From Oscillospiraceae bacterium (GTDB lineage: Bacteria; Bacillota; Clostridia; Oscillospirales; Oscillospiraceae): a stretch of 64,000 bases of DNA. Every line of letters begins with the position of its first letter. The first letter of the stretch is position 1. Shown here in pieces: positions 11,173-41,524 of this stretch. Location: positions 1 to 64,000 of the forward strand of contig SVKK01000001.1 of NCBI GenBank assembly GCA_015068425.1, given 5' to 3'. A model generated the notes under the pieces. It was not told the origin of the DNA. It was given only the letters and a program-made list of their open reading frames with translations, and made no database searches. The position numbers and the translations under genes are program-made.

Positions 11173-11209
11173 CTCAAAGACTCCAAATCGTCCGTATAAT
11201 TTTTCTGAC

Positions 11210-11239
11210 ATGCCTGATACCAAAAACAGTATCAGGCAT
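11210..11239 (-). promoter_or_regulatory. Perfect hairpin between GRE1 and its activase
   Basis: ATGCCTGATAC (11210-11220) is perfectly complementary to 11229-11239 with an 8-nt loop. It starts 26 nt after the GRE1 stop and ends 37 nt before the activase start. No U-run follows, so it probably protects the GRE1 3' end or limits read-through, giving the high enzyme-to-activase ratio such systems need. Confidence 0.65.
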
Positions 11240-14754: not shown

Positions 14755-14764
14755 GACAAAACCC

Positions 14765-15769: not shown

Positions 15770-15779
15770 TTTATGTACC

Positions 15780-16691: not shown

Positions 16692-16692
16692 A

Positions 16693-17661
16693 TTATGCTC
16701 CCCTCACTTTCTTCCGCCTTTTCTTTACATTATCCAAAATCAGGGATGTCTTAAGGCGGGGATCAACATAAGCATAAATAATATCCAAAATCAGATTTAT
16801 TGCTGTGCAGACGCAGGCAAGAACAAACACGCCGCCGAGAGCCGAAGGATAGTTTCGTGATGTAATTGCATCTGCAATATATTTTCCCACTCCGGGAACA
16901 CCGAAAACGGTTTCAATTATTAGAGCTCCGCCAAGCTGATTTCCAAAGTCAAAACCTATCTGAGAAACCATAGGTATCAAAGTGTTGCGAACCATGTGAC
17001 GGAAAATAACGATGCGCTCTTTCTGACCCTTTGCTCTTGCGGTCTTAACATACTCCTGGCGCATAACATCCAGCATAGTTGTGCGTGTCATTCGAATATT
17101 GGTAGACATACACGAGAGCATAATAACGGCCATTGGGAGAATATAACCCTTCCAATCAGCTATGCCACTCGTTGGCAGCACGCCCCACTTGACCGAGAAC
17201 AGCAGTATTCCAAAAAGAGCAAGACAAAATCCGGGGATAGCAAGAAGCGCCATGGAAAAAACAATAAGCGCACTATCTATCCATGTGTACTGCTTTATTG
17301 CCGATATAATTCCCAGCGGTACGCCGAACAAAACACCCAGCAATACCGCGCCCACCGCGAATATCAGAGACACGGGAAATCGAACCATAAGTTCTTTCAA
17401 AACAGGCTGTCCCGAACGATATGAAGTTCCCAGATCTCCCGTGAAAGAATGAAACACATATCTAAAGAATCTGGTCAGAAAGGGGTCGTCCAATTGAAGT
17501 TCTTCCCGAAGTTCCATTATCTGTTCTTCAGTGGCCTCTACACCCAGAATCATCTGCGCGGGATCGCCGGGTGAGATCTCGTTCAGTACGAAGAGAATAA
17601 AAATCACGCCGAACAGAATCGGGATCAGATATATAATTCTTTTTGCCAAATATTTTAACAT
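16693..17661 (-). CDS. Opp/Dpp-type ABC transporter permease (OppB-like)
   Basis: Membrane permease of about 322 aa with six predicted helices. It has an N-terminal helix followed by the SPGDPAQMILG segment typical of OppB/DppB, a conserved TARAKGQKE coupling motif, and a C-terminal YAYVDPRLK. ATG 17661 is preferred because the GAAGGTGG site lies just upstream; a GTG at 17670 would overlap it. It is separated from the binding protein gene by 139 nt holding a strong hairpin. Confidence 0.9.
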   Translation of the reverse strand: MLKYLAKRIIYLIPILFGVIFILFVLNEISPGDPAQMILGVEATEEQIMELREELQLDDPFLTRFFRYVFHSFTGDLGTSYRSGQPVLKELMVRFPVSLIFAVGAVLLGVLFGVPLGIISAIKQYTWIDSALIVFSMALLAIPGFCLALFGILLFSVKWGVLPTSGIADWKGYILPMAVIMLSCMSTNIRMTRTTMLDVMRQEYVKTARAKGQKERIVIFRHMVRNTLIPMVSQIGFDFGNQLGGALIIETVFGVPGVGKYIADAITSRNYPSALGGVFVLACVCTAINLILDIIYAYVDPRLKTSLILDNVKKRRKKVRGA

Positions 17662-17736
17662 TTTTTCCACCTTCGGCGATTAATATAGCTTTAATAGCTG
17701 ATCTATAAATATCGGAAAAATATCATTAAAGAATGG

Positions 17737-17763
17737 GGGGGTGCCGCACGAGGCGGCACCCCC
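17737..17763 (-). promoter_or_regulatory. Strong GC hairpin between oppA-like and oppB-like genes
   Basis: GGGGGTGCCGC (17737-17747) is perfectly complementary to 17753-17763. The tail on the minus strand is A/T-rich but lacks a proper U-run. It is probably a partial terminator or mRNA stabiliser favouring binding-protein expression. Confidence 0.7.
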
Positions 17764-17800
17764 GTTGCCGGTTAAATAACTATCTAATTTTTACCGCTTA

Positions 17801-19480: not shown

Positions 19481-19532
19481 TTCTTTTCCTCCTAATTTAT
19501 AATAAGTTTTTGCGGGCAAATTACGTTGAAAT

Positions 19533-19572
19533 AAAAAAACTGACGGCAAACATCATAGATGTTTACCGTCAG
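19533..19572 (-). terminator. Intrinsic terminator or attenuator in the leader of the Opp operon
   Basis: CTGACGGCAAACATC (19540-19554) pairs with 19558-19572 with one wobble, and a seven-U run follows on the minus strand (19533-19539). It lies downstream of a good promoter (19666-19694) and upstream of the first gene, so transcription of the operon must pass it. It could also end read-through from the GH1 gene. Confidence 0.8.
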
Positions 19573-25204: not shown

Positions 25205-26173
25205 TCAGGCGCTTGTTTTTATCTTTTGCGTGGACGCTTTTCTGCGTACAGAAGTACCGTTCGTACAGGCATCAAGGGACATAAAGAAGAGCACGAAAAT
25301 TGAAATTACAATGGAGTTATACTCACTGGGGAATCCAAGAGCCATCAGACAGAGCTTTACCAGCTGCATAACCAAACTTCCGCAATAAATTCCCGCAATC
25401 AGATTGCCCTTGCGCGTTATGGACATTCCCACGAATACGCACATCATGGCATCAAAGCATGTACCCATTGAACCCATTGAACCGACAATCTTTTGCACGC
25501 CGGATGAGCCCAAACTGACAGACGCATATACGCCGGCAAAAAGTCCGGCCAGGGCAATGGCAATAACCTTCACCTTATATACATCAAGTCCGTTTGCTGC
25601 GGCAACAACAGCGTTATTTCCCACTGCGCGCACATTATATCCGATTTTGGACTTATAAAACAGCAGGTGGGCTGCAACAGCTGCGACAATGGCGATTATC
25701 ATAAGACTGATGCTGTTGAAAAGCTTCCAGTCGCTGGGCAGATAAACGCCGGAGCCGTTGAAAACATAGGCGCTGATGCTCTCATATATGAGCAGAATTC
25801 CGATACTGGTGATAATAGTGGGAATTTTCAGCAGATAGTAGACAAGACCCACCACCGCTCCGGCAATCAGTGCCACCAGAATACATAAAACCATCATGCC
25901 TGGCATACCGAGCCCAAGAATTATTGCCAGATTACCGCCTACAATGGCGCTGAGCAACACGACAGAGCCGACCGAGAAATCCCAGTTGCCAACCTTCATG
26001 TTGAACAAGACACCCCATCCCAAAATGGCGGGAGCCACAGCTTGCTTGAGCAGGGAAGGAACATTCTTCATGCTGACCGTGCCCTGAAAAGCAATGCACA
26101 GGACAAGAAAACCCACTATGGGAACAAGCAGCATCAGTCCATATTTACTTGCAATGGATTTTACTGTTTTCAT
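25205..26173 (-). CDS. Ribose-type ABC transporter permease B (second system)
   Basis: RbsC-family membrane permease of 322 aa with about 8-10 helices. It ends the second ABC operon (ATPase 29911, permease A 28395, binding protein 27361, this gene). The order is identical to the first ABC system at 2488-7395, where the equivalent permease also lacks the canonical coupling loop. The binding protein stops 45 nt upstream. Confidence 0.87.
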   Translation of the reverse strand: MKTVKSIASKYGLMLLVPIVGFLVLCIAFQGTVSMKNVPSLLKQAVAPAILGWGVLFNMKVGNWDFSVGSVVLLSAIVGGNLAIILGLGMPGMMVLCILVALIAGAVVGLVYYLLKIPTIITSIGILLIYESISAYVFNGSGVYLPSDWKLFNSISLMIIAIVAAVAAHLLFYKSKIGYNVRAVGNNAVVAAANGLDVYKVKVIAIALAGLFAGVYASVSLGSSGVQKIVGSMGSMGTCFDAMMCVFVGMSITRKGNLIAGIYCGSLVMQLVKLCLMALGFPSEYNSIVISIFVLFFMSLDACTNGTSVRRKASTQKIKTSA

Positions 26174-26218
26174 ATTGCCAACCTACTCGAAAAATTTGTG
26201 TTAACTGTTTTAAAAAGC

Positions 26219-27361
26219 TTACTGAGCAGCGGATACAACAGACTCGAGGGTATACTCATCCATCAGGTCATAGATGGTCTGGAGGGAAGCATCCTTGTTG
26301 TAGCGCTTAGCCATGCTGCGGATAGTCTCTGCATCATAGATCATATGCTCGGGATTGCTGATATACTTTGCATAGTTTGCGCAGTCCTCAGTGTTGGTGA
26401 TGTAGATGAACTTCTGCTGCAGGACGGTGAAGGTATCAGACAGAGGAGTTCCATCAACTGCGTTGAACAGAAGAACGAAATCGAAGAGGCTCTGGATCTC
26501 GATACCGCCGGCAATGGCAGTAATCCATCCATCAGCGAAGCCCTGTTCCATACCCTCGAAGGTATCGAAGGTGCAGATTTTAATCTTGCCGGGCTCAGTG
26601 AGACCCTTGAGGGTGTTGATAACAGTTTCACCGCCGCCACCGGTTGCGCTGCTCATAAGGAGACCGTCCATCTCAGGATAAGAGGTGGTGAAGTTTTCCA
26701 TATAGGTCACATATGCCTGAGTGCTGCCGTCGGAGGGAGAGGTGTAGTCAGCAAGGACTTTGCCGCCAACGGAGGCAACAGCCTCTTCATAAGCGGTGTT
26801 TCTGACAGCCAGAGAGGAGCCGGGAGCGATTTTGCCAAGACCGTAGTTCAGGCGGCCTTCAGCAGCCATCATTTCGGTCATAGCCTGGCAGGCATCTTCG
26901 TTGGCCTCAAAGCTGGTACCAACGTAGAAGGGGTTGGCCTGACATGCAGCCTTGATATCGGGATCGCTGATATCGCGGTTCATCATCTGGAACCAGATCT
27001 CATTCTGCAGGCAGTAGTCGCTGATGAGGCTTACGGTGTTGTCACTCAGAGGCAGGAAGAGAAGTCCCTCGCAGCCAGCGGCAACAAGGTTTTCCGCGGA
27101 AGCCAGCTGAGATTCTGCATCATAGTCATTGAGTGCCCACTGGATCTCAACATCCAGAGCCTCGGCTGCGGAGTTGATGTAAGCATACTCGGCAGCGCCG
27201 AATGCGTCATCCTTACCGTAAAGGATAACACCTATCTTGTGTTTTACATTTTCGTCTCCGCCCTTGGCGCCGCAACCGGTCATACCGATCATAGCTACCA
27301 TAAGCAGTGCAAGGACAAGTGCTGTTACCTTAAAGGCACGCTTAAGAGTTCTTCTTTTCAT
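26219..27361 (-). CDS. Sugar-type ABC transporter substrate-binding lipoprotein (second system)
   Basis: Secreted binding lipoprotein, 380 aa. It has a signal peptide with lipobox (MIGMTGC), a short Gly/Lys linker, and a peripla_BP_4-type body starting with KIGVILYGKDDAFG. It lacks the Ala/Pro linker seen in the other four binding lipoproteins of the window. Conserved features include FLPLSDNTVS and a DGLLMSS segment. The ligand is presumably a sugar or glycoside, given the operon type and the GH1/ROK genes downstream. Confidence 0.9.
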   Translation of the reverse strand: MKRRTLKRAFKVTALVLALLMVAMIGMTGCGAKGGDENVKHKIGVILYGKDDAFGAAEYAYINSAAEALDVEIQWALNDYDAESQLASAENLVAAGCEGLLFLPLSDNTVSLISDYCLQNEIWFQMMNRDISDPDIKAACQANPFYVGTSFEANEDACQAMTEMMAAEGRLNYGLGKIAPGSSLAVRNTAYEEAVASVGGKVLADYTSPSDGSTQAYVTYMENFTTSYPEMDGLLMSSATGGGGETVINTLKGLTEPGKIKICTFDTFEGMEQGFADGWITAIAGGIEIQSLFDFVLLFNAVDGTPLSDTFTVLQQKFIYITNTEDCANYAKYISNPEHMIYDAETIRSMAKRYNKDASLQTIYDLMDEYTLESVVSAAQ

Positions 27362-27423
27362 TATGGAGTCTCCTTTTCATTTTATTTTCTAACGGCTTTG
27401 CCATTTAGATTCTGTGGATTTTT

Positions 27424-28395
27424 TCAGGTCATCACTCTGCCGGAACCGCGCTCAATGGAAATATACACAACTCCAAGGAATACGATGCCCTTAACAATGT
27501 ATATAAGGGAGGGATCCATACCCCAGAGCTGGAGACCGTTATTGAGGATAAACAATGTCATACCGCCAAGGATGGCGCTGCGCACCTTAGTTCCGGAACC
27601 GCCTGTCAGAGGCAGACCACCAAGAGTGAGAGCCAAAAGGACGTTTGTTTCCAGACTGCTTCCGGTAGAAACACCCACACCGCCACCGCGGATAATGGTC
27701 ATAAAGGCGGCGATGCCCACCGTGCATCCACTGATAAGGAAAGCGATGGTCTTATACTTATTCACCTTTACGCCGCTGAGAGCCGCGCATGCGGGATTGG
27801 AGCCGATAAGCTTATTATATTTACCAATTTTTGTGTACTCAAAAAGTATGTAGGCTACCACAAACACGAACACAACAACGCCCAGATAGAACCAGACATT
27901 CTGCAGCACCTTGAACTCTTTGGGCAAGGACATTGGGAAGGTTTGATAAGTTCCCTGCGCAACACCGCGTCCCAGGAACATAATACACAGACCGGCCATA
28001 AAGGCAGGTATTCTGGCTTTTATATGCAATACTGCAGTTGCCAGGCCGCAGAGCATTCCGGTGATAATGCATATAGGCAGCATAAGGGCATAGGATGTGA
28101 AGCCGCCAATTACAATTCCCGCAACGGCACAGAGCGCGCACGCTCCTCCCAGAGAAAAGTCCAGATTGTTATGCGCCATAACAAAGCTGCATCCGATAGC
28201 CGCCACCATTGTTATTGCCGCCTGAGAAACAATATTTGTCAGATTTCTTATAGTTAGAAATCTGCCCTTTGTTGTCAGGCCGAACAGTATGACAAGGACA
28301 ATCAGGCCAAGGAACGGCACCGTCTGCTTCAAAATGCCCTTCCAATTGTGACCAATAGCCGTAAGTTTTTTACACATCTTACATTCCTCCGTCAC
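27424..28395 (-). CDS. Ribose-type ABC transporter permease A (second system)
   Basis: RbsC-family permease of 323 aa with the conserved LALTLGGLPLTGGSG coupling loop near residue 265 and multiple transmembrane helices. It follows the ATPase by 19 nt and precedes the binding protein by 62 nt. With the divergent permease at 25205-26173 it should form a heterodimeric channel. Confidence 0.88.
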   Translation of the reverse strand: MTEECKMCKKLTAIGHNWKGILKQTVPFLGLIVLVILFGLTTKGRFLTIRNLTNIVSQAAITMVAAIGCSFVMAHNNLDFSLGGACALCAVAGIVIGGFTSYALMLPICIITGMLCGLATAVLHIKARIPAFMAGLCIMFLGRGVAQGTYQTFPMSLPKEFKVLQNVWFYLGVVVFVFVVAYILFEYTKIGKYNKLIGSNPACAALSGVKVNKYKTIAFLISGCTVGIAAFMTIIRGGGVGVSTGSSLETNVLLALTLGGLPLTGGSGTKVRSAILGGMTLFILNNGLQLWGMDPSLIYIVKGIVFLGVVYISIERGSGRVMT

Positions 28396-28414
28396 AGTCT
28401 CTTCAACAGGTGAA

Positions 28415-29911
28415 TCATATTATTTTCTCGATCAGCATACGCTCGGTAAGATTGTCGCTTCTGCTGAACTGGCCGTTTATTACGCCGTCTTTCATTATAA
28501 GAATACGGTCCGACATACCCAGCAGCTCAGGAAGCTCTTCGGACACCATAATGATGGACTTTCCTTCCGAAATGAGCTTTTCCATAAGCTTATAGATGGT
28601 TGCCTTGACGCCTATATCTATTCCTCGTGTTGGGCAGTCCATAATAATTATGCGTGAATCATTGGCCATCCACTTGGCCACAACTACCTTCTGCTTATTT
28701 CCGCCTGAAAGCTCCTTGGCAAACTGCTCAACATTCTGCATCTTTACCGCCAGCTCATCCGCCGCATCCACAGCCAGTTTCTTCTCGCTGCGGGGAGAGA
28801 TGAAAATGCCCTTTTTCAGATTGTCAAGGGATGTAACCGTGATATTGTCCTTGATGCTGGTCATCAAAAATACAGACTCCTGGTCACGATCCTTAGGAAG
28901 ATAAGCAATATGGTTTTTGATGGCAATGGAGGGACTTGTCACCTTCACACCCGTTTCGCTGAGCACCACCTCGCCACTATCCGGTTTGATGGCACCGAAA
29001 ACAACCTTGCATAGCTCGTGCATACCGCACTCGGTGAGACCGCCAAGACCGAGGATCTCGCCCTTATTGAGCCGGAAGCTAATATTATGCAGAACGTCTG
29101 CATAGTTGATGTCCCTGACTTCGAGAACGCTTTCATCAGTGGAGTAGCTTTTTTCGTCCCGGTAATAGCTGCCGCTCAGCTCGCGTCCAATCATACGCTG
29201 GCGCATCATATCAGGAGTTACATCTTCTCCAAACAGGGTGTCAATATACTGTCCATCACGGAGAATAAATGCGCAATCGCAAACTCTCTGCACCTCTTCC
29301 AAATCATGAGAAATGAAGATAACGGACTTGTTCTGCTCCTTGAGGCTATTTATAAGTGCATAAATCTTTTCGCGCCCGGTATGAGACAAAGCGGTGGTTG
29401 TCTCGTCAACAATCAGAAGTTCCGGATCATTAGAGAGCGCGCGGCATACCTCAACCAGTTTTCTCTCTTCGAAGGAGAGTTCGTCAATCAGCTGTTTTGC
29501 GGATATATGGGGTGCGCCCACGCTGTCAAGAAGCTCTTGCGCTGCCTCATTGAGTTTTCGGCTGCTTATGGAGACGCCTACAGTGAAGCGGCTTTCCTTG
29601 CCCAGGAAAATATTCTCCGCAACGGTCAGTCCGTTAATGGTTCCCGTTTCCTGAATGAGGATGCAAATACCCTGATTGCCGGCATCAATTATTGATTTGG
29701 GGCTATAGGGCTCGCCTTTATAAAACATTGTTCCTTCATCACTTTTCAAGGAACCCGTGACCATACTCATAAGAGTGGATTTTCCGGAGCCGTTTTCTCC
29801 GATGAGAGCCATTATCTGCCCGCGCTGCAGTTCCAGCGAAACATGCTGCACCGCCTTTGTTGGACCAAAGCTTTTGCTCATATTTTCAAGTTTCAATATA
29901 ATGTCTTTCAT
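28415..29911 (-). CDS. Sugar ABC transporter ATPase, two domains (second system)
   Basis: RbsA/MglA-type ATPase of about 498 aa. Domain 1 has Walker A GENGSGKST and Walker B LLIVDETTTAL. Domain 2 has signature LSGGNKQK and IIMDCPTRGIDIG with a degenerate Walker A (GGLTECGMHEL). It resembles the first-system ATPase closely in layout and motifs. ATG 29911 is preferred since AGGATGGG lies 5 nt upstream; ATG 29920 has no spacing from its site. It is the first gene of the minus-strand operon. Confidence 0.9.
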   Translation of the reverse strand: MKDIILKLENMSKSFGPTKAVQHVSLELQRGQIMALIGENGSGKSTLMSMVTGSLKSDEGTMFYKGEPYSPKSIIDAGNQGICILIQETGTINGLTVAENIFLGKESRFTVGVSISSRKLNEAAQELLDSVGAPHISAKQLIDELSFEERKLVEVCRALSNDPELLIVDETTTALSHTGREKIYALINSLKEQNKSVIFISHDLEEVQRVCDCAFILRDGQYIDTLFGEDVTPDMMRQRMIGRELSGSYYRDEKSYSTDESVLEVRDINYADVLHNISFRLNKGEILGLGGLTECGMHELCKVVFGAIKPDSGEVVLSETGVKVTSPSIAIKNHIAYLPKDRDQESVFLMTSIKDNITVTSLDNLKKGIFISPRSEKKLAVDAADELAVKMQNVEQFAKELSGGNKQKVVVAKWMANDSRIIIMDCPTRGIDIGVKATIYKLMEKLISEGKSIIMVSEELPELLGMSDRILIMKDGVINGQFSRSDNLTERMLIEKII

Positions 29912-30013
29912 AGCACCCATCCTATCTTAGAAAAGCATCAATTTGTCACCTGTAAGCCTTCAGAACCCGGTACATTTATATACGTAATATATAGTATAAT
30001 ACCTCTTGATTTT

Positions 30014-30191: not shown

Positions 30192-31130
30192 CTAACCGCC
30201 GATTTGCACCTGCACGCCGAAGGACTCCGCAACAGCTTTCAGATGTTCCATATGTTCGTCCGAGGGCACTTCTATGTTTAATTTTGTATCGTTACCGAGA
30301 TTCTCGTTCTTTGACTCGCCGAGGCGGTGATAAGGCAGTAAGCGAATCTTAACCTCTCCTATAAGCTCCTCCGCCACAAACTTTGCGGTCGCGGCAATAT
30401 TCTCCTCAGAGTCATTACAGCCCGGGATGGTCGGAAGGCTTATCATTATGGGAATTCCAAGATCATTATGTATATGTTTTATATTATCAAGTATCTGTTC
30501 ATTGGGCACTCCCGTCAGTCTCCTATGTTCTGCGGAGTCCATATGTTTTATATCCAACAAGCCCAGATCTACATAACGAAAGACCTTATCAACAACCTCT
30601 CTTGAAGCAAAGGAACAGGACTCTATCGCAGTATGCAGTCCTTCCTCTTTTGCTGCGCGAAGCAAGGTCTCGGTAAATTCCGGATGCATAAGAGGCTCGC
30701 CCCCACTGATGGTAACCCCTCCGCCGGAGGCATCCATAAACATTTTGTCTCGCAAAACGGTTTTTATTACTTCCTCCACCGTCATTTCCTTGCCTACGAG
30801 TTCTCTCGCCTGGGCCGGACACGCATCGACACACATACCGCAATCCACACAAACCGTTCTGTCTGTGTATGCCAACATTTTTCCGTCCTTTTCAAGCATA
30901 GAAATTGCATTATGAGGGCAGAAAGACACACACTCACCGCAGCCCGTGCATTTCCCCGCATAAGTCATAAGCTGAGGCTTTGTCAAATTGGATTCCGGAT
31001 TGGCGCACCACTGGCACCGAAGGGGGCAGCCCTTCACAAAAACAGTAACTCGTATACCCGGCCCATCGTGTATGGAGTACGACTGAATGTTAAATACACT
31101 TGCAGAAACGGATGAGCACACAGACTTCAT
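30192..31130 (-). CDS. Glycyl radical enzyme activase 2 (radical SAM)
   Basis: Radical SAM activase of 312 aa. It has the signature DGPGIRVTVFVKGCPLRCQWC with the CxxxCxxC cluster motif, two extra [4Fe-4S] motifs (CTGCGECVSFCP, CVDCGMCVDACP), and GGGVTISGGEP. It would activate GRE2, encoded about 2 kb away on the other strand. In between lies a PucR-type regulator. It has its own promoter (31181-31208). It is only moderately similar to activase 1, consistent with separate partner enzymes. Confidence 0.94.
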   Translation of the reverse strand: MKSVCSSVSASVFNIQSYSIHDGPGIRVTVFVKGCPLRCQWCANPESNLTKPQLMTYAGKCTGCGECVSFCPHNAISMLEKDGKMLAYTDRTVCVDCGMCVDACPAQARELVGKEMTVEEVIKTVLRDKMFMDASGGGVTISGGEPLMHPEFTETLLRAAKEEGLHTAIESCSFASREVVDKVFRYVDLGLLDIKHMDSAEHRRLTGVPNEQILDNIKHIHNDLGIPIMISLPTIPGCNDSEENIAATAKFVAEELIGEVKIRLLPYHRLGESKNENLGNDTKLNIEVPSDEHMEHLKAVAESFGVQVQIGG

Positions 31131-31285: not shown

Positions 31286-32911
31286 CTACAGATCCAAAAA
31301 GTAAGTAGGCCAGAGAGACAAAAGATTTGTATGCTCCGGAAGAGACACAGGAAGAGGTCTATGCAGATAATGCTTATAGTACTGGAGCACCATACACGAG
31401 AACAGCAGACTGAAATAAATACCCGGGTCATCAAAATCGATGTTGGTAATCTCTTTTATCAGCACCATTTTCTTCTGCACGGTATTTCGATGCATAAAAA
31501 GCAGCTCGCTGGCCTTTGAAATATTGCCTCCGGCCAGAAGATACTTATGCAGGACATTAACAAGATTATCTCTGTGCATATTGTCGTGTACAGCCAGATG
31601 GGCAATTGAGGGATCGCCCAAATATATGAGGGCATCATCTGTGCCCCCCATCTTTAAAAGCGCGTTTCTGCACATATCAATGGCGATAAAACCATAATAA
31701 TCAGCGTAGAAATATACTCTCTTACTGGATGCAGGGGCGTCACTCTCTGTCATAACTGTAACAATATGCATAGTTGAAAGGGCAAGGTTATAGTTGACAT
31801 GCAGCATATTCCAGCTGGAAGTTGCATTACAGACAATCATAAAGGCTCCCAACTCTTCCATAAGTGCCTCAAGTGCCTTTATATCAAAATCCTGTTTGAA
31901 AAACATTCTCTCTTTGCAGAACAACACAACAATGTGGCCATTATACACGGCAACATTGTGGAGAGGGAATACTTCTCTCACACGCTGAAACGCACGCTGA
32001 AGGGAAAAGTCTATCCTGTTGCTGTCGGCGTAAACAAGAATAGTTGCATAAAAACGTTTTATTGGTTTTTCCAGACAATTCAATTTTGTGCGCAGCTCTT
32101 CCGGAGCCGGAGCTCTATTTGCGGAAACATAGTCCAGCAGTCCCGGCAGTGCCGAAGGCTGGATGGCGTTTTCCTCCCTTTGGAATTGTGCCGAAATAAG
32201 CTCGCAGCATATCTCAAGGTAAGTAGTTGAAAGTGATATAACAGCTTTTGCAGACAAAATCGCAACTAAAAGGAAGCGTATATGCGCTCCTGTTGAAACC
32301 GCTCTTATCAGACAGAATTCTCCCTGTTTTGTAGTATATACTTTGGTTGCATCAAGAAACTCCCTGATGTCCGTTTCTCCGCAGACTGCCTTTAGCGGGA
32401 ACAGGCCGCTCGCCTGTATACCCTCCACCAGCGCGCTCGTATTTGCACTGCGTATTTCTTCCTGAACGACCTCCATCTGATGGTTGAGAAGAAAAACTGC
32501 CCCTCCAAGTTTTTGAGAACATCTCTTCACGAGATGAATTGGGGAAGTGCTTCGGAGTGCATCCTCCACACAACGCAGCTTATATGTTGCAATATCCTGC
32601 AGGCGGGTATTGAGGCAATTGAAAAGCTGCTCCAGCGACATCTGCACATATATAATATTGGATCCTCTTGAGTTGGATACATCAGCAGTACTTCCTGAGC
32701 TTGCTATAAAAATAGTTACAGGCACAGAATGGCGAAGCCTTTTTAGAAGGCTTTCCGCAACGTATACCGAAGCAACATATACATTTCCTGCAGCAGGAAC
32801 AGTATCAGAGGAAGCAAGAATAAGAGGCTTTTTTATATTTATCTGCTCAAAACTAATGACCTGCTTGGTGGTCTTTGATATTACCGCATCCACGAGAGCG
32901 AAGACCGTCAT
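31286..32911 (-). CDS. PucR/CdaR-type transcriptional regulator
   Basis: Regulator of about 541 aa. The C-terminal ~65 residues match the PucR helix-turn-helix (VLHKYLLAGGNISKASELLFMHRNTVQKKM). The larger N-terminal part probably contains PucR-like sensory and GGDEF-like regions, but these are weakly recognisable. ATG 32911 is preferred, with GGAGGGGG 8 nt upstream. It is divergent from GRE2 and beside activase 2, so it is the probable regulator of this GRE/TTT locus. PucR family members often control purine or sugar-acid use in Firmicutes. Confidence 0.82.
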   Translation of the reverse strand: MTVFALVDAVISKTTKQVISFEQINIKKPLILASSDTVPAAGNVYVASVYVAESLLKRLRHSVPVTIFIASSGSTADVSNSRGSNIIYVQMSLEQLFNCLNTRLQDIATYKLRCVEDALRSTSPIHLVKRCSQKLGGAVFLLNHQMEVVQEEIRSANTSALVEGIQASGLFPLKAVCGETDIREFLDATKVYTTKQGEFCLIRAVSTGAHIRFLLVAILSAKAVISLSTTYLEICCELISAQFQREENAIQPSALPGLLDYVSANRAPAPEELRTKLNCLEKPIKRFYATILVYADSNRIDFSLQRAFQRVREVFPLHNVAVYNGHIVVLFCKERMFFKQDFDIKALEALMEELGAFMIVCNATSSWNMLHVNYNLALSTMHIVTVMTESDAPASSKRVYFYADYYGFIAIDMCRNALLKMGGTDDALIYLGDPSIAHLAVHDNMHRDNLVNVLHKYLLAGGNISKASELLFMHRNTVQKKMVLIKEITNIDFDDPGIYFSLLFSCMVLQYYKHYLHRPLPVSLPEHTNLLSLWPTYFLDL

Positions 32912-33006
32912 AAATATTTCCCCCTCCAAAAAGTGCATTTTTCTACAGTTTACACCTCTAAAACCGCCGAGTCAATAGACATTGGCAGGCATTAATGTGC
33001 AATTTT

Positions 33007-33021
33007 GCTGCATTGTGCAGC
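33007..33021. promoter_or_regulatory. Candidate operator palindrome for the PucR-type regulator
   Basis: GCTGCATTGTGCAGC is a perfect 6-bp-arm palindrome in the 236-bp gap between the divergent regulator and GRE2. The word TGTGCA occurs three times in this gap (near 32996, 33016 and 33072), the last at the -35 of the GRE2 promoter. A longer dyad, GGCATT/AATGCC, encloses the palindrome. Confidence 0.5.
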
Positions 33022-33069: not shown

Positions 33070-33098
33070 TTGTGCAAGGAATTCTTCGTCTTTATAAT
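33070..33098 (+). promoter_or_regulatory. Promoter for the GRE2-tct operon
   Basis: TTGTGC (33070-33075), a 17-bp spacer and TATAAT (33093-33098), about 50 bp before the GRE2 ATG. The weak -35 overlaps a TGTGCAA word, which suggests control by an activator or repressor at that site. Confidence 0.6.
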
Positions 33099-33147: not shown

Positions 33148-35562
33148 ATGACAGAAAGAGTAAAACGACTTCGAAAAAAAATTGTTGCTTTCGGCAATGA
33201 AATTCGTGCTGAAAAAATGCGAATCACTCTGGAGAGTGAGAAAAAAACTCAAAACTGGCCCTCCATACTCCGCCGTGCTCAAAGTTTTTACGATGTTGCA
33301 TGCCAGATAGAGGTGCACGTAAACGACGACGAGTTGATAGTTGGAACTCCCGCGAGCAAGCCTTGGGCTCTTGAAATAGAATCCTGTCTTGGAAAATGGG
33401 ATCAGGATGAGATCATAGCGCTCCGCGAAGATGGCTACAAAGTGACCGAAGAAACGGAAAATCTTATCCTTGAACTAAACAAGAACTTTGAACCCTTCGG
33501 TATGTACCAGTATGCCAATCTCGCTGTCCGCGCAGACAAGGAACTGGAAAACTTTGTCCGCACCGGAATTTGCCTTGCTCCCTGGAAAGAAGACACAGGC
33601 AACAATGATAACCGAGTGGGCGGCGGATCCGCCTGTTCCGGACTTGGTCTGGGTCCCGGTTGGATGCTTTACATCGCGGATTACGAGATGGCTCTGAATA
33701 AGGGCTTTGAAAAACTCATTGAAGAGTGCGACGAACAGCTGGATAAACACCAGTTTGACGGTCCCAAGGCCATAGACCGCTCCTGCACTCTGCAGGCAAT
33801 GAGATTATGTCTGCAAGGCGTTATCCGCTATGCCAATCGCTGTGCTGATCTTGCAGAGAACAAGGCAGCTGTATGCAGCGATGCCGCAAGAAAAAAAGAG
33901 CTTGAAGAAATTGCAGAAATTTGCCGCCGTGTGCCTGCCAAACCTCCCCGCAGTTTCCGTGAAGCACTTCAGTTTGTCTGGTTCATCTTTATGTTCATAG
34001 CCCCATCCCCCACTGCAACAATAGGCCGTATGGACCAGTATCTCTATCCCTATTACAAAAACGACATTGATGCCGGAATCATAAGCAACGATGAGGTTAT
34101 AGAACTTCTTGACTGCTTCCGCATACGCTGTATGGAAATCCACGCGGTATCCGGCAAAGAGGTTCGAAAGCGTGCCTCCGGCGGAGCAAGATGGCTCAAC
34201 GTTACCATAGGCGGAGTTAAGCCCGACGGAAGCGATGCAACCAACGAGCTCAGCTATCTTATACTTGACGCGGTAATGGATTGTCCTTGCATACAGCACA
34301 CTGTGTCCGTTCGTGTTGCAGAAAGCACCCCGAAAAGCCTTATAGCCAAGGGTGTTCAGTGCCAGGCAATGGGTCTTAGCATGCCCGCCTTCACCAGCGA
34401 CAAGAGTTATATAAGCTTCTTTATGCAAAAGAGCAGAGGTGACGACGGTCTTCCTCTGGAAACTGCCCGCAATTACTGCATGACGGGATGCATAGACGGA
34501 AACATCCCCGGCAAAACCCGTACCTTCGGCGTTTCTATGTTTATAGCCCCCCTCACACTGGATATTTTCCTTAATCAGGGCATATGTAAAAATACCGGCG
34601 TGCAGGCCGGTCACGCAGTGGGTGATCTGGACCGCTTTGAAACTTTTGAGGAGTTCAAGGAAGCATATTATAAAGAATTCCGCTACTTCATACATCTTGC
34701 ATGCCAGAAAAACAATATTGAAAATCTCAGCTTCGCACAGCTTATGCCCACTCCTTTCCGCTCCGCCCTCATGAGCGACGGAATAGAGGTTGGACTTGAT
34801 GTTGGTAATCGCTGCTTCCCCTTCGAAAACGGCTCAGACATCAATGCTGTTGGAACCGTTAATCTGGCACAAAGTCTCTACGCTATTAAAAAATTGGTTT
34901 ATGACGAGAAGCTTGTAACTCTCAGCCAACTCAAAAAAATCCTTGACGCCAACTGGGAGGGTCACGAAGATCTTCTGCGCAAATGCAGAGAGCTTCCCCA
35001 TTATGGCAATGATATTGACGAGGTTGACGAGCATATTGTCGACATATACAAAGTCTGGAACGAGTTTGCAACCGAGTATCCCTCATCCTTCGGAGGCTAC
35101 TCCCGCACCAACGCCATTTCCGTCACCAGCCACGGTCCGGGCGGCAAGCTGACCGGAGCCACTCCGGATGGTCGAGTGGCAGGAGAAACTCTTGCCGACG
35201 CCAATGCCTCTCCCATTCGCGGAACTGACCACAACGGACCTCTCGCCGTTATGAAGAGCGCTATGAAGATAGACCAGAGCAAATATCAGGCTTTCCTCTT
35301 CAATATGAAATTCCATCCCACTGCTCTTAAAACGGCCGAAGATCAGATGAAGCTCGTTGAAGCTATTCGCGTATATCTTCTCAATGGCGGAAGTATGATA
35401 CAGTTTAATGTTGTTGACGACAAGCTGATGATAGAAGCCCGCGAGCATCCCGAAGACCACCAGGACCTTATGGTACGAGTTGCAGGCTACAGCGCATACT
35501 TTGTAAACCTGACTCCGGACATACAGTCCGAGCTTATTGAACGCACCTCTCAGCGTTTTTAA
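33148..35562 (+). CDS. Glycyl radical enzyme 2, unassigned subfamily
   Basis: Anaerobic radical enzyme, 804 aa, PFL-like domain plus C-terminal motif RVAGYSAYF (radical Gly780). The catalytic Cys is Cys448 in MTGCIDGNIPGKT. In known dehydratase/lyase GREs the motif is GCVE; here Asp450 stands where the Glu base is expected. The IPGKT region aligns well with that class. The start has AAAGGAGGAG. It is followed by a complete tripartite tricarboxylate transporter, so the substrate is probably an organic acid (inference). The activase is encoded divergently at 30192-31130. It is only distantly similar to GRE1. Confidence 0.94.
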   Translation: MTERVKRLRKKIVAFGNEIRAEKMRITLESEKKTQNWPSILRRAQSFYDVACQIEVHVNDDELIVGTPASKPWALEIESCLGKWDQDEIIALREDGYKVTEETENLILELNKNFEPFGMYQYANLAVRADKELENFVRTGICLAPWKEDTGNNDNRVGGGSACSGLGLGPGWMLYIADYEMALNKGFEKLIEECDEQLDKHQFDGPKAIDRSCTLQAMRLCLQGVIRYANRCADLAENKAAVCSDAARKKELEEIAEICRRVPAKPPRSFREALQFVWFIFMFIAPSPTATIGRMDQYLYPYYKNDIDAGIISNDEVIELLDCFRIRCMEIHAVSGKEVRKRASGGARWLNVTIGGVKPDGSDATNELSYLILDAVMDCPCIQHTVSVRVAESTPKSLIAKGVQCQAMGLSMPAFTSDKSYISFFMQKSRGDDGLPLETARNYCMTGCIDGNIPGKTRTFGVSMFIAPLTLDIFLNQGICKNTGVQAGHAVGDLDRFETFEEFKEAYYKEFRYFIHLACQKNNIENLSFAQLMPTPFRSALMSDGIEVGLDVGNRCFPFENGSDINAVGTVNLAQSLYAIKKLVYDEKLVTLSQLKKILDANWEGHEDLLRKCRELPHYGNDIDEVDEHIVDIYKVWNEFATEYPSSFGGYSRTNAISVTSHGPGGKLTGATPDGRVAGETLADANASPIRGTDHNGPLAVMKSAMKIDQSKYQAFLFNMKFHPTALKTAEDQMKLVEAIRVYLLNGGSMIQFNVVDDKLMIEAREHPEDHQDLMVRVAGYSAYFVNLTPDIQSELIERTSQRF

Positions 35563-35645
35563 GCTTTGTATGCCCAGCTGTGTACCAAGGTGATAGATGT
35601 CATTGCTATATGCTGATTCCAATATGAAAGGAAGGGATCTGTGAA

Positions 35646-36125
35646 ATGGGCAAAATTAAAAAAGATCAGGTTCTCGGTATCATCATCCTGATCGTTGCGG
35701 CCTTTTTTGGCTACCACACTCTGAAGCTGGCTCCGACCAATCTTGTCGGAGATCCCGGGCCCAGAATGTTCCCCCTTGCAGGCTGCATATTGATGGCAGT
35801 TTTCGCCGTTGTCGTGATTGTTCATCCCGAAAAGAACAACGGCAAAGTATATCTTACCAAAAAACAGTGGATGCATGCCATCTCTCTTTTCGGAGTCTAT
35901 GTGCTTTACCTTCTGCTGCTTTGGCTTTTAGGCTTTACAATTGCCAACTACATTGCACTTGCGGTTTTTTCCTTTATGTTTTCCTATGTTACAAACCCGG
36001 ATTCAACCCTTGCAAAACGAATTTTGAAGAGCGTTATCTACGCGGCCATCGTAGGAACAGCCCTTTACCTGCTATATGTTATAGCCCTCGATGCCCAACT
36101 GCCAAGAGCAATGCTCTGGGACTAA
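35646..36125 (+). CDS. tctB: Tripartite tricarboxylate transporter small subunit TctB
   Basis: Small membrane protein, 159 aa, four predicted helices, TctB family (GDPGPRMFPLAGCILM motif near residues 35-50). It forms the small membrane subunit with TctA. It lies 83 nt after GRE2 and 12 nt before tctA. The order tctB-tctA-tctC differs from the common tctC-tctB-tctA. Its coupling to GRE2 is the main clue to the enzyme's substrate class (carboxylates). Confidence 0.9.
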   Translation: MGKIKKDQVLGIIILIVAAFFGYHTLKLAPTNLVGDPGPRMFPLAGCILMAVFAVVVIVHPEKNNGKVYLTKKQWMHAISLFGVYVLYLLLLWLLGFTIANYIALAVFSFMFSYVTNPDSTLAKRILKSVIYAAIVGTALYLLYVIALDAQLPRAMLWD

Positions 36126-36137
36126 GGAGGTGCCGCT

Positions 36138-37643
36138 ATGAATGAAGTATTGCAATATTGTTGGGGCGCTGTCCTGGATTTGTGCACCCCCGCCGGAATA
36201 CTGTTTCTTTTCGGTGGCTCTCTCATCGGTCTTGTGCTGGGCTCTCTGCCGGGACTAAGCGGCGGTACGCTTACAGTTCTGCTGCTTCCCATTATGTATA
36301 AAATAGAGCCAGTTATGGCCATGGCACTGCTGATTTCCATCTACACAAGCTCGACCTCCGGCGGTTGCATAGGTTCCATACTTCTGGGCATTCCCGGAAC
36401 CAACTCCTCTATTGCCACGGTATGGGATGGATACGAGTTTACGAAACAGGGTGATCCTGTTCGTCCATTGAGTGTCGCTGTAATATGTAATTTTATCGGC
36501 ACCCTCCCCTCTATGCTGATCGCCATGATCTGCTGCAAGGCTCTTGCGGAAATTGCCGTTAAAATGGGTCCCTGGGAATACGCCGGAATGTGCTTCTGTG
36601 CGGTGGCACTTGTTGTAGGCCTTACAAAGGGTAATATGGCAAAAGGACTTATCGGCGTTGGTCTCGCCATAGTTTTGAGTTCTATGGGCCCCGACCCGCT
36701 GACGGGTATGCGCCGTCTTACCTTTGATGTAAAGAGTCTTTACGGCGGAATAAATGTTATCCAGCTCATGCTCGGTATGTTTGCCGCAAAAGTAATTATG
36801 CTGGAATATTCACGCCGCGACAAAGTAGACGCGGCAAAAAGAATTAAGGTGGACAGATTCCGCTGGCCGGGAAAAGACCTGAAGAGCAATCTTGGAAATA
36901 TGTTCCGCTCCTTCTTTACCGGTGCTTTCATCGGCTTCCTCCCCGGTCTCGGCGGTCCCACCTCCACAGTCGTGGCATATTCCACAGAACGCTCTCTTTC
37001 AAAGGAAAAGGAAAAATGGGGCAAAGGCCACATTGGTGGTGTTATTGCTCCCGAAATCGCAAACAATGCCGGTATTGGCGGAGCTCTTATTCCTATGATC
37101 GCTCTCGGTGTTCCCGGAGATGCAGCAATGGTTCACTTTATGGCTGCACTCCAGAGCCAGGGTATTAATCCCGGACCTCTGCTTATGTCAAGCCATCCTG
37201 ATATTGCATATATGCTTTTTGTGGGTGGCATAATCTGCGGCGTATTTGTTCTGATATGCGAGATTGTAGGTATGCCGCTGTTCCCGAAGCTTCTTAAAAT
37301 ACCCTATCATTATCTTTACCCCGCCATCATAGTTGTGAGCTTCATCGGTGCCTATATGGTAAAGGGAAATATGTTTGGCATGATCGTATGCCTCGGCGCC
37401 TGCGTCCTCGGCATTTTTATGGAGTATTTTGAAATTCCCGAAATGCCCTTTATCATGACAGTTATACTCAGCTCCCTTCTGGAAAAAAATATTCGTCAGG
37501 GTATGAATTTCTCCTTTGTAGGTTTCGCGGAATTTTTCACCCGTCCTGTTTCCTGCATTTTCATCGTTGTCGGCCTTGCAATGCTGCTCTGGCATGCATT
37601 CGGCGGCCTTGTGATCAAAGCTCTTCGTAAGAAAAGCAAGTAA
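36138..37643 (+). CDS. tctA: Tripartite tricarboxylate transporter large subunit TctA
   Basis: Membrane transporter of 501 aa with about 11-12 helices. It carries both conserved TctA repeats: GSLPGLSGGT at about 35-45 and GFLPGLGGPTSTVVAYS at about 270-285. It also has the GIPGTNSSIATVWDGY and GVPGDAAMVHFMAAL segments. The start follows AAGGAGGTG. It is a secondary, ion-gradient-driven importer of citrate-like or other carboxylates. Confidence 0.95.
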   Translation: MNEVLQYCWGAVLDLCTPAGILFLFGGSLIGLVLGSLPGLSGGTLTVLLLPIMYKIEPVMAMALLISIYTSSTSGGCIGSILLGIPGTNSSIATVWDGYEFTKQGDPVRPLSVAVICNFIGTLPSMLIAMICCKALAEIAVKMGPWEYAGMCFCAVALVVGLTKGNMAKGLIGVGLAIVLSSMGPDPLTGMRRLTFDVKSLYGGINVIQLMLGMFAAKVIMLEYSRRDKVDAAKRIKVDRFRWPGKDLKSNLGNMFRSFFTGAFIGFLPGLGGPTSTVVAYSTERSLSKEKEKWGKGHIGGVIAPEIANNAGIGGALIPMIALGVPGDAAMVHFMAALQSQGINPGPLLMSSHPDIAYMLFVGGIICGVFVLICEIVGMPLFPKLLKIPYHYLYPAIIVVSFIGAYMVKGNMFGMIVCLGACVLGIFMEYFEIPEMPFIMTVILSSLLEKNIRQGMNFSFVGFAEFFTRPVSCIFIVVGLAMLLWHAFGGLVIKALRKKSK

Positions 37644-37714
37644 AAGCCCACTTTTCAGTAAAACTTCAGCCTCCAATCGGGGCTTGGTTTAATAAAAATG
37701 GAAGGAGATCCAAA

Positions 37715-38809
37715 ATGAAAAAAATCATTGTCCTTTTGCTGGCGCTCTGCCTCTGTGTCGGCCTTTTCGGCTGCGGCAATGAGCCCGCTGCACCTGCTGC
37801 GCCTGCCGCTCCTGCTGCACCCGCAGACCCCGCTGCGCCCGCCGCTCCCGCTGAGCCCGCCGCTCCCGCTGAGCCTGCCGCTCCCTGGCCCAAAGATGAT
37901 GTAACCGTTTACATCACTAACGATGTCGGTGCTCCTACCGACCTGGCAGCCCGCGTTCTCATTGACTATCTGGCTGATATGACCGGATATTCCTTCACCA
38001 TTGAGAATGACTCCACCGGCGGCGGTGCAAGACTTGGTTCTGAGCTTTATGAAGCTGAGCCCGACGGCACCACCCTTATGATTACCTCTCCTACCTGCAT
38101 TACCTCCTACTATGAGGGATATTGGGACAACAATCTCTCCGATCCCAACAGCTATACCCTCATCGCTCCCAGCATCGGTCCCTCCATCGACAGCGGAAGC
38201 ATTATGATGACCCAGACCGACAAGCCCTTCAACAATATGGAAGAGCTGGTCAAATACTGCGAGGAAAATCCCAACACCCTCACCGTTGGCTATCCTCCCG
38301 GAACCATTTATGAGCCCCGTCTGAGAGTTGTATTCCGCCACTTTGGAATTGAAGACAAGGTACGCTGGGTATCCGCTACCAATGACGATATGATCACCGG
38401 TCTTCTTGGCGGCACCATCAACATCGGTATGTATTCCGAGGACCAGGGTGTTGGCTATCTTGCCGACGGCAAGCTGAAGGCTCTGCTGCTTACTCGTTCC
38501 TCCCGCAACTACACCGCACATCAGCAGTATTTCGACAGCATTCCCATTCTCCCCGATGTTGCCGATGACTTCCAGGATATGCTGGTTCTGATGCCCATGG
38601 TGCTCTGCGGTCCTGCAAACATGCCCGAAGAGATTGTTAACTACATCAACGATCTCTGCTCTGTAATTCTTGAGAACGAAGAATATGCCGAGAGAATTGC
38701 CGGACTTGGCGGAATTTCCACCTATGAGCCCAAAACTCCTGAAGAGCTCCGTCAGATCATCGCCGATCTGGACACCGCTCTCGAGGTTGTTCACAACGCA
38801 AAGGGCTAA
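37715..38809 (+). CDS. tctC: Tripartite tricarboxylate transporter binding lipoprotein TctC
   Basis: Extracytoplasmic binding lipoprotein, 364 aa. It has a signal peptide and lipobox (GLFGC), then a striking Ala/Pro repeat linker of about 30 residues, then a TctC (Bug-type) body (NDVGAPTDLAARVL, STGGGARLGSELY). Bug-family proteins bind carboxylates such as citrate, aromatic acids or amino acids. The start follows GGAAGGAGAT. It is the last gene of the operon, ended by a strong terminator. Confidence 0.93.
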   Translation: MKKIIVLLLALCLCVGLFGCGNEPAAPAAPAAPAAPADPAAPAAPAEPAAPAEPAAPWPKDDVTVYITNDVGAPTDLAARVLIDYLADMTGYSFTIENDSTGGGARLGSELYEAEPDGTTLMITSPTCITSYYEGYWDNNLSDPNSYTLIAPSIGPSIDSGSIMMTQTDKPFNNMEELVKYCEENPNTLTVGYPPGTIYEPRLRVVFRHFGIEDKVRWVSATNDDMITGLLGGTINIGMYSEDQGVGYLADGKLKALLLTRSSRNYTAHQQYFDSIPILPDVADDFQDMLVLMPMVLCGPANMPEEIVNYINDLCSVILENEEYAERIAGLGGISTYEPKTPEELRQIIADLDTALEVVHNAKG

Positions 38810-38823
38810 GCCCAAATCAATAT

Positions 38824-38853
38824 AAAAGGCAGATGCTTTTGCATCTGCCTTTT
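38824..38853. terminator. Bidirectional terminator
   Basis: AAAAGGCAGATGC (38824-38836) is perfectly complementary to the GCATCTGCCTTTT arm at 38841-38853, with a TTTT loop. More T follow on the plus strand and A-rich sequence on the other side, so it can serve both tctC and the convergent MATE gene. Confidence 0.93.
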
Positions 38854-40519: not shown

Positions 40520-41524
40520 ATGCTTAGCAAGAGAGAGAATTTTCTTGAAACCATCCGCGGCGGCAAGCCCGACCGCTTTGTGAAGCAGTATGAGTATATG
40601 GCTATGCTGCCCGGTGATCCCGTCTGCTCCTTTGTCCGCGGCAACCGCTATCCCGGCATGGAGCCCAGCTTCGACAAGTGGGGCACCCGTATTCTCTGGC
40701 CCGCACACGAAGTTGCCGCCACTCCCGACCCCCTTCACAAGGTCCTTGACGACATTGAGGAATGGGAAGACATCATAAAGGTTCCTGATCTTATCGCCAA
40801 CTGCTCTGCCGAAGAGCTCTGGGCTCCCTATATTGAGCGCTGCAACGCAGTTGACCGCAGTGAGCAGCTTGTCACCTGCTTTGCACCCACCGGCGTATTT
40901 GAGCGCCTTCACTTCCTCATGGGCTTTGAGGACACTCTCTGCAACTTTATGCTGGAGCCCGAGCTTATGGCCGACCTGAGCATGGCTATCGGCGAATACC
41001 GCTACAACGGCTTCAAGCTTATGGTTGAAAATGCTCATCCCGACGCCATCCTCTCCCATGACGACTGGGGCAGCAAAACCAACCTCTTCGTTCAGCCAGA
41101 GCTCTGGCGTGAGATCATCAAGCCCGCATACGAGAAGAGCTACAAGTATCTCAAGGAGAAGGGTGTTATAATCATCCACCACTCCGACAGCTTCTGCGAG
41201 CCCATAGTTGAGGATATGATCGACCTTGGCATCGATGTATGGCAGGGTGTTCTTCCCCAGAACGACATCGTCAAGCTCCAGAAACAGATCGGCGGTCGAA
41301 TGGCCCTTCAGGGCGGCATTGATGCTGCTATCGTTGACAGACCCGACTCCACCGAAGAAGAAATTCGCGCCGAGGTTCAGCGTGTCTGCCGCGAATACTG
41401 CGCTCCCGGCAATTTCTTCATCCCCTCCGTTACTTACGGCGGCCCCGGCTTTATCCATCCCGGTGTTGACGATATCGTAAATGAGGAAATCGACAAGTTC
41501 TCCGCTGAGGTTTTCGGAAAATAA
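40520..41524 (+). CDS. Uroporphyrinogen decarboxylase-family (methyltransferase-like) protein
   Basis: Cytoplasmic TIM-barrel protein, 334 aa, of the URO-D family. The segment IIIHHSDSF at the position of the methylcobalamin:CoM methyltransferase zinc site (HxC in MtaA) lacks the Cys. This resembles the UroD-like methyltransferase group associated with corrinoid-dependent O-demethylases, not the haem enzyme. No haem genes or corrinoid protein are nearby, so its function is open: a methyl transfer to or from an aromatic or corrinoid substrate is the best guess. It is monocistronic, with AGGAGGT upstream. Confidence 0.8.
   Translation: MLSKRENFLETIRGGKPDRFVKQYEYMAMLPGDPVCSFVRGNRYPGMEPSFDKWGTRILWPAHEVAATPDPLHKVLDDIEEWEDIIKVPDLIANCSAEELWAPYIERCNAVDRSEQLVTCFAPTGVFERLHFLMGFEDTLCNFMLEPELMADLSMAIGEYRYNGFKLMVENAHPDAILSHDDWGSKTNLFVQPELWREIIKPAYEKSYKYLKEKGVIIIHHSDSFCEPIVEDMIDLGIDVWQGVLPQNDIVKLQKQIGGRMALQGGIDAAIVDRPDSTEEEIRAEVQRVCREYCAPGNFFIPSVTYGGPGFIHPGVDDIVNEEIDKFSAEVFGK

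Follow-up and report, generated by a model that had tools for sequence, protein, structure and literature searches.

Glycyl radical enzymes (GREs) run some of the hardest reactions of gut anaerobes, including those of choline, taurine/isethionate, hydroxyproline, p-cresol and skatole, and many GREs are still unassigned. In the stretch of DNA analysed here, a window of 64,000 nucleotides from an Oscillospiraceae bacterium (contig SVKK01000001.1), a GRE that we call GRE2 stands beside a tripartite tricarboxylate transporter (TTT). The question raised by this locus is what reaction such an enzyme performs, and whether the importer supplies its substrate.

GRE2 is followed on the same strand by tctB, tctA and tctC, separated in that order by gaps of 83, 12 and 71 nt, and each of the four genes is preceded by a Shine-Dalgarno-like sequence. 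The four genes form a single operon that ends at a terminator, and a PucR-type regulator and a radical-SAM activase are encoded divergently from it. The features of the locus are:

30192..31130, minus strand: radical-SAM glycyl radical activase (312 aa; TIGR02494 360 bits, cut-off 174)
31286..32938, minus strand: PucR-type regulator (550 aa; PF13556 HTH_30 48 bits, residues 459-515)
32996..33001, plus strand: TGTGCA half-site 1, candidate PucR operator (motif enrichment)
33014..33019, plus strand: TGTGCA half-site 2, candidate PucR operator (motif enrichment)
33071..33076, plus strand: TGTGCA half-site 3, candidate PucR operator (motif enrichment)
33148..35562, plus strand: GRE2, CXD-type glycyl radical enzyme (804 aa; PF02901 and PF01228)
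34489..34497, plus strand: codons Cys448-Ile449-Asp450, predicted catalytic Cys and Asp (conservation in alignments)
35485..35487, plus strand: codon Gly780, predicted glycyl radical site (RVAGYS motif)
35646..36125, plus strand: tctB, small TTT membrane subunit (PF07331 55.8 bits)
36138..37643, plus strand: tctA, large TTT membrane subunit (PF01970 408 bits)
37715..38809, plus strand: tctC, predicted substrate-binding lipoprotein of the TTT importer (PF03401 46 bits)
38824..38853, plus strand: intrinsic terminator, end of the GRE2-tctBAC operon (13-pair stem, T-rich tail)
40520..41524, plus strand: URO-D-like protein, probably also part of the module but transcribed separately (PF01208 46 bits)

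An earlier note on this DNA had placed tctB-tctA-tctC directly after GRE2, and coordinates, strand, Pfam matches and the shared terminator bear this out. The activase and the PucR-type regulator are divergent, as it had also claimed, and both lie just outside 33148-38809.

By sequence, GRE2 is a complete glycyl radical enzyme. It has a PFL-like domain (498 bits) and a C-terminal Gly_radical domain with the RVxGY motif (99 bits), both above the Pfam cut-offs, together with a cysteine in the Cys loop and a dedicated activase. The Cys loop, YCMTGCIDGNIPGK, contains Cys448 and Asp450, which are invariant in both alignments (A1 and A2), while the radical loop, RVAGYSAYF, contains Gly780, with RVAGYS invariant in alignment A2. 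The activase carries CPLRCQWC, a Radical_SAM domain and two Fer4 stretches (Pfam); it scores under all equivalog activase cut-offs and passes TIGR02494. Assignment of GRE2 through an NCBIfam equivalog was rejected on score, as it falls below every GRE cut-off (CutC, HypD, HpsG, HpfG, IAD, HPAD, PflD and PFL1; best 481 of 1050 bits).

GRE eliminases are reported to share a conserved CXE motif (PMC7077986), so the earlier note was correct that Asp450, near Cys448, occupies the place of a usual Glu. The Asp is no local oddity, being present in all 96 rows of what we term the CXD clade. This clade comprises 96 sequences from 83 loci in several phyla, is monophyletic with a support of 100, and has as hosts rumen and gut Bacillota, Acidobacteriota, Planctomycetota, Spirochaetales and other anaerobes; Youngiibacter fragilis, Fusibacter ferrireducens and Geosporobacter ferrireducens are members in culture. 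Its specific residues are Arg340, Lys/Arg348, Trp349, Asp450, Asn452 and Arg458 (GRE2 numbering), and it also has a Gly-rich insertion near residues 155-171. In a tree from which HPAD, IAD, PAD, XSS and IslA are absent, the clade is sister (support 99) to the arylacetate-decarboxylase-like (AAD-like) GREs, themselves a clade with a support of 100; GRE2 holds this sister position and is not inside the AAD-like clade, and its closest characterised relative within the sampling is arylacetate decarboxylase. An AU test rejects grouping with HypD (p 0.0015) or with CutC-like GREs (p 6e-5). The earlier note had allowed that GRE2 might fall in a known clade with an established substrate; by tree, AU test and equivalog scores it does not, and clade placement and scores uphold that note's view that the locus matches no characterised GRE locus. 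No description of such a GRE module was found in the open-access literature, and literature searches found no GRE with TctC, TTT, PrpD or the candidate substrates considered below.

To relate GRE2 to its importer we compared the neighbourhoods of the 83 CXD-GRE loci, with genes called by a codon-usage gene caller. All three TTT subunits of the window score above their Pfam cut-offs within one operon, as in tripartite tricarboxylate transporters of the TctABC/Bug type; the genome encodes a second TctA besides this one, and TctC is remote from every TTT binding protein of solved structure (35 bits at best). The GRE-tctBAC synteny recurs in other genomes, at 8 of the 83 loci, so that the linkage extends to relatives. 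MatC/CitMHS, unrelated to TTT, is found at 25 loci and is the type used by most importer-bearing members of the clade. MatC or TctA occurs at 32/83 CXD-GRE loci compared with 1/29 control GRE loci (Fisher p 2.4e-4). On the tree the importer label changes at least 7 times for TTT and at least 19 times for MatC, and the GRE-importer linkage is therefore recurrent. In the reverse test, 7 of the 12 nearest TctC homologues (34-48% identity) lie with a CXD GRE and 4 with partner genes only (activase, MmgE/PrpD, URO-D or PGA_cap); none of 6 distant homologues (<30% identity) lies with a CXD GRE, activase, MmgE/PrpD, URO-D or PGA_cap.

The TTT is one interchangeable importer and not a fixed partner of the CXD clade. 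As it is found at 8 of 83 loci and the other importers are mostly MatC/CitMHS, the conserved unit is a CXD GRE with a carboxylate importer, a PucR regulator (homologue near 27/83 loci) and an activase (homologue near 51/83). The proposal that GRE and TTT together point to a radical reaction of an imported organic acid is supported as to the radical reaction and the imported acid, but TTT itself marks only a minority of loci. A tripartite importer of organic anions beside a GRE has been seen before: the isethionate sulfite-lyase IseG/IslA sits with a TRAP transporter (PMC6453916). The genomic logic of a GRE adjoining a binding-protein-dependent importer is the same, although the importer is TRAP rather than TTT and the enzyme CXE rather than CXD. 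In the available part of that description the sulfonate-binding Arg/Gln/Arg set is reported for the IseG cluster only, and a PucR/MmgE/URO-D context is not found.

The chemistry of GRE2 can be read in several ways. Tentatively, it may have arisen from the arylacetate decarboxylase branch and decarboxylate, by radical chemistry, a polycarboxylate or an aryl-substituted acid. The arylacetate decarboxylase of Olsenella scatoligenes (PDB 7e7l; PMC9248008), reported without the accessory subunits of HPAD, has the same GRE fold (31% identity in the fold alignment), and its relatives form the sister group of the CXD clade; the PHxT strand and a His at GRE2 position 662 are common to both, and linkage with acid importers points the same way. 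However, its Cys loop is GCVLH rather than GCIDGN, it lacks the Gly-rich insertion, AAD-like sequences lack the basic residues of the CXD clade (positions 340, 348 and 458), none of five AAD-like loci examined has MatC or TTT, and the sister position comes from a tree without the five GREs named above. A possible but somewhat doubtful alternative makes GRE2 an eliminase that has diverged, acting as a dehydratase or as a C-N or C-S lyase, with Asp as a plain substitute for the CXE Glu; it would turn a hydroxy or amino acid that bears a leaving group at the beta position into an oxo acid or aldehyde. GRE2 shares the predicted activation chemistry and the acidic Cys+2 residue, a hallmark of eliminases, with CutC, HypD, glycerol/propanediol dehydratase and isethionate lyase, and its AF2 model (pLDDT 88.6, pTM 0.91; TM approximately 0.9 to GRE folds) has glycerol and propanediol dehydratases as its closest solved folds. 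At loci L122 and L124 a set read as a putative CoA-aldehyde dehydrogenase, phosphotransacylase and kinase lies upstream of the GRE; an aldehyde as product would be in keeping with it. Yet the decarboxylases HPAD and IAD also carry Glu at Cys+2, the CXE eliminases have other pocket residues and 27-32% identity to GRE2, the HypD and CutC-like groupings are rejected, and no aldehyde dehydrogenase cluster is widely recurrent among neighbour clusters.

Two further readings are less probable. It is improbable that the GRE2-TTT adjacency is incidental, with the substrate of GRE2 made inside the cell and TctBAC downstream only by chance. For GRE2's closest sampled relatives (the 55% identity group) the importer is MatC or a Dpp-type ABC system, or there is none close by, and a TTT in no case adjoins the GRE; 45/83 loci lack MatC, TctA or Dpp nearby, though many contigs are short. 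Against this stand the co-directional GRE2-tctBAC arrangement with a single terminator, the association of 11 of the 12 related TctC genes with CXD GREs or their partner genes, and the rarity of importers at control loci. That GRE2 is a diverged pyruvate formate-lyase or other characterised GRE is largely refuted and very hard to credit: Pfam and TIGR01774 label it PFL/glycerol dehydratase-like, but it scores less than half of the cut-off for CutC, HypD, HpsG, IAD and HPAD and 106 of 994 bits for PFL1, and a separate GRE on contig C18 scores much better as PFL-like.

We consider it rather probable that the GRE2 operon forms a regulated module for the breakdown of an organic acid, probably with two or three carboxylates, that is cleaved by radical lyase chemistry. 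In this module the PucR-type regulator would control the divergent operon, the TctC lipoprotein would capture the acid and TctAB would import it, as known for these families. Family knowledge and the conserved residues suggest that the activase, with SAM, generates a radical at Gly780; this would pass to Cys448, whose thiyl radical would abstract hydrogen from the substrate. From clade-specific conservation and alignment to HypD positions, rather than coordinates, Arg458, Lys/Arg348 and Arg340 may neutralise carboxylates, and Asp450, in place of the usual Glu, may be a proton shuttle or base. The substrate would then lose CO2 or another leaving group; here we infer decarboxylation with reservation, elimination with still more, and other chemistry as rather unlikely. 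Tricarballylate/aconitate, an iminodisuccinate-like acid, tartrate, quinate and esterified plant acids were weighed as substrates, and the evidence favours none over the others.

CXD GREs stand next to importers of acids again and again across many anaerobes, so a hitherto undescribed reaction that degrades an acid is probably still to be found. The chances are about even that the CXD clade is a new GRE functional class. Its substrate would then be a di- or tricarboxylate not known to be used by any GRE, cleaved by means of Asp450 and the Arg/Lys set; a single radical step would be served by exchangeable importers of unrelated families (TTT, MatC and perhaps Dpp), and pairs of paralogues on either side of one common TTT would carry out two linked steps. 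With the clade in so many anaerobes, assigning its function would supply an annotation for well over a hundred loci and clarify the role of Asp in the CXE position. TctC offers a practical handle, as its ligand can be screened before the probably oxygen-sensitive GRE2 is attempted.

Partner enzymes in relatives' loci include HGD-D, CoA-transferases, acyl-CoA dehydrogenase and MmgE/PrpD, and the product there would appear to be processed further by CoA-linked reduction (CoA-transferase, 2-hydroxyacyl-CoA dehydratase, acyl-CoA dehydrogenase/Etf). The window's own genome has no MmgE/PrpD and carries its HGD-D pair on a different contig, so this downstream route may not apply here; as partner genes differ between loci, the clade may hold several substrates. 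MmgE/PrpD is far below the cut-off for 2-methylcitrate dehydratase (45 of 575 bits); its closest solved relatives, iminodisuccinate epimerase and cis-aconitate decarboxylase, are suggestive of polycarboxylate chemistry but too distant for assignment. A capsule role for PGA_cap was set aside, its closest solved relatives being 8gq9/8gqb (81 bits); the closest NCBIfam is the lasso-peptide epimerase MslH, which makes an epimerase role only a lead. URO-D-like homologues lie near 14/83 CXD-GRE loci and also beside related TctC genes. No solved relative of the URO-D-like protein was found, and a role as corrinoid methyltransferase is unsupported, the family sharing HDDW and His221 and no conserved Cys. 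In the window a MATE gene on the opposite strand sits between tctC and the URO-D-like gene.

The regulator has its HTH (PF13556, 48.4 bits, cut-off 27) at the C-terminus, with no Pfam match to the PucR N-terminal domain. The intergenic region between its gene and GRE2 measures 209 bp. TGTGCA/TGCACA is present in 15/21 divergent PucR-GRE intergenic regions compared with 38/317 others (Fisher p 3.5e-9, for a motif chosen after the fact), making the TGTGCA half-sites a candidate PucR operator. Site density is 4.85 per kb in these regions versus 0.86 per kb in the others, a 5.6-fold difference.

The contig that carries the window (C39) belongs to a 1.9 Mb draft genome, 84% complete, with four glycyl radical enzymes (GREs) and two TctA genes. 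GRE2, the GRE under study (33148-35562, 804 amino acids), was found with Pfam to contain a PFL-like and a glycyl radical domain, and the arrangement described in the earlier note is borne out: the Cys loop is Cys448-Ile449-Asp450, with Asp at position 450; tctB, tctA and tctC, the tripartite carboxylate importer (TTT), follow on the same strand with successive gaps of 83, 12 and 71 nt; and a divergent PucR-type regulator (550 amino acids, PucR C-terminal HTH) lies 209 nt away, with the activase the next gene beyond it. A Shine-Dalgarno-like sequence precedes each tct gene, and a 13-pair terminator starts 15 nt past the end of tctC. The radical in GREs is relayed from activase to Gly to Cys, and GRE2 would work likewise, as its conserved residues support; its glycyl radical motif is RVAGYSAYF (Gly780). 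A sugar-type ABC importer operon (25205-29920; binding protein, two permeases, ATPase) adjoins the activase on the same strand, approximately 270 nt apart, with no evidence for its membership in the GRE2 module.

By every test run the GRE2 locus matched no known system, and the earlier observation is real. Against the CutC equivalog, whose cut-off is 1050 bits, GRE2 scored no more than 481 bits; the HypD equivalog (cut-off 1100) gave 457 bits and its best solved relatives 375-429 bits. An AF2 model built from 51 sequences (pLDDT 88.6, pTM 0.91) resembles glycerol/propanediol dehydratase, CutC, HypD and others at TM ~0.9 and 23-32% identity, and the fold therefore picks no function.

To define the relatives of GRE2 we scanned genomes with an alignment of 20 of them, which confirmed 141 stretches; the best 80 of the 141 gave 79 loci, and adding the window and three loci from whole genomes brings the set to 83 loci with 96 usable GREs. 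Asp occupies position 450 in all 96, referred to here as the CXD clade. Members score 587-995 bits against GRE2 and occur in rumen and gut Oscillospiraceae and Lachnospiraceae, Geosporobacter, Fusibacter, Youngiibacter, Acidobacteria, Sedimentisphaerales, Spirochaetales, and actinobacterial and 'Proteobacteria' MAGs. Arg340, Lys or Arg348 and Trp349 (each 96/96), Asn452 (95/96) and Arg458 (94/96) are near-fixed in the clade and rare among 35 other GREs, relative to which a Gly-rich stretch at residues ~155-171 is an insertion. By alignment, positions 348 and 349 correspond to HypD Asp339, whose part in the active-site network is reported to be essential, and Phe340, which touches substrate (PMC7077986). 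The added positive charge at these positions would suggest an anionic substrate.

In a mixture-model tree of 48 sequences, all CXD GREs form one monophyletic group (support 100); GREs with a GGCV[LI]H Cys loop are its sister (support 99), a term limited to this sampling since HPAD, IAD, PAD, XSS and IslA are absent. One of these AAD-like GREs (L163) matches PDB 7e7l, the arylacetate decarboxylase of Olsenella scatoligenes, at 1204 bits; the group scores 441-536 bits against its best CXD relative. Grouping the clade with HypD or with CutC-like GREs is rejected by the AU test (p 0.0015 and p 6e-5). Judged from kinship with AAD-like GREs, decarboxylation by GRE2 would be favoured; the acidic residue at Cys+2 is compatible with elimination as well as with HPAD/IAD-type decarboxylation.

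The GRE-TTT linkage proposed earlier held in part: among neighbours up to 7 kb and five genes away, TctA recurs (8/83 loci), as one importer type of several, beside MatC/CitMHS (PF07158/PF03600; 25/83) and Dpp-type permeases (8/83). MatC or TctA occurs at 32/83 loci versus 1/29 control stretches with the nearest non-CXD GREs from the same bacterial family (MatC 1, TctA 0, counted over the whole stretch); the Fisher p of 2.4e-4 is merely a guide because the loci are related to each other. On the tree at least 7 label changes are needed for TTT and 19 for MatC, so TTT is one among several importers repeatedly gained at CXD loci. The nearest relatives of GRE2 (53-55% identity) have MatC (L055, L062), Dpp genes (L056) or no importer nearby. 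MatC had no match in the window's genome, and its model also matched 0 control genomes.

For the reverse test, the window TctC served as query against 200 genomes of the same family. Twelve homologues were found at 34-48% identity, after which full-length matches drop below 30%. Seven of the twelve share a contig with a CXD GRE, four accompany the activase of such a GRE, MmgE/PrpD, URO-D-like or PGA_cap genes, and one lies on a 3.7-kb contig with a CoA-transferase as sole companion. At six more distant TctC loci all of these genes are absent. The window TctC subfamily thus belongs to the module of CXD GRE, carboxylate importer, PucR regulator and activase. The window's URO-D-like gene (40520-41524) is probably part of it too.

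A carboxylate is the substrate that we infer for GRE2 with best support, from importer families, the reverse test and the basic clade residues. The CXD GRE locus is a variant not known before inside a known enzyme superfamily, and we regard the TctC ligand as the best way in to GRE2 function.

Several neighbours recur beside CXD GREs. Among them are MmgE/PrpD, whose closest relatives of solved structure are iminodisuccinate epimerase and cis-aconitate decarboxylase, and PGA_cap, for which the closest NCBIfam family is the epimerase MslH; others are URO-D-like and esterase/PepS15 proteins, CoA-transferases, acyl-CoA dehydrogenase with Etf, and HGD-D proteins related to 2-hydroxyacyl-CoA dehydratase. 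Jointly they suggest a lead rather than a pathway, from polycarboxylates to CoA-linked intermediates, the acids perhaps being freed from esters and sorted by stereochemistry before the CoA-linked steps. MmgE/PrpD is absent from the window's draft genome at its 84% completeness, and the HGD-D pair there is on a different contig from GRE2.

Three loci (L109, L125, L131) hold two CXD GRE paralogues, of AGCLDL and TGCLDG types, around one tctBAC set, which suggests two radical steps or two stereoisomers of one imported acid. L122 and L124 (~6.3-16.5 kb) differ in context from the other CXD loci: there the CXD GRE lies in one line with genes for a putative CoA-acylating aldehyde dehydrogenase, phosphotransacylase and acyl kinase and for two OYE-type reductases. 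DUF4125, TPR and DUF4037 genes recur near CXD GREs at L081, L116, L120, L125, L130 and L131. At L138 and L164 a URO-D-like gene is directly followed by another GRE type (TGCFIH Cys loop), so more than one GRE branch has URO-D-like companions.

TGTGCA/TGCACA occurs in 15/21 divergent PucR-GRE intergenic regions versus 38/317 of the remaining intergenic regions at these loci (4.85 versus 0.86 sites per kb). The Fisher p of 3.5e-9 is uncorrected, and since TGTGCA was picked as the top-scoring 6-mer it needs correction for ~2,000 6-mers, which its significance survives. The window has three copies:

32996, 33014 and 33071: TGTGCA, candidate PucR operator

The window also holds a second GRE, unrelated to GRE2 and downstream of an importer recognised from translations:

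10246-11223: activase of the second GRE
11266-13713, minus strand: second GRE, motif GCAGS
13789-19549: Dpp-type ABC importer

The second GRE's relative at L146 (64-65% identity) is accompanied by activase, MatC and PGA_cap.
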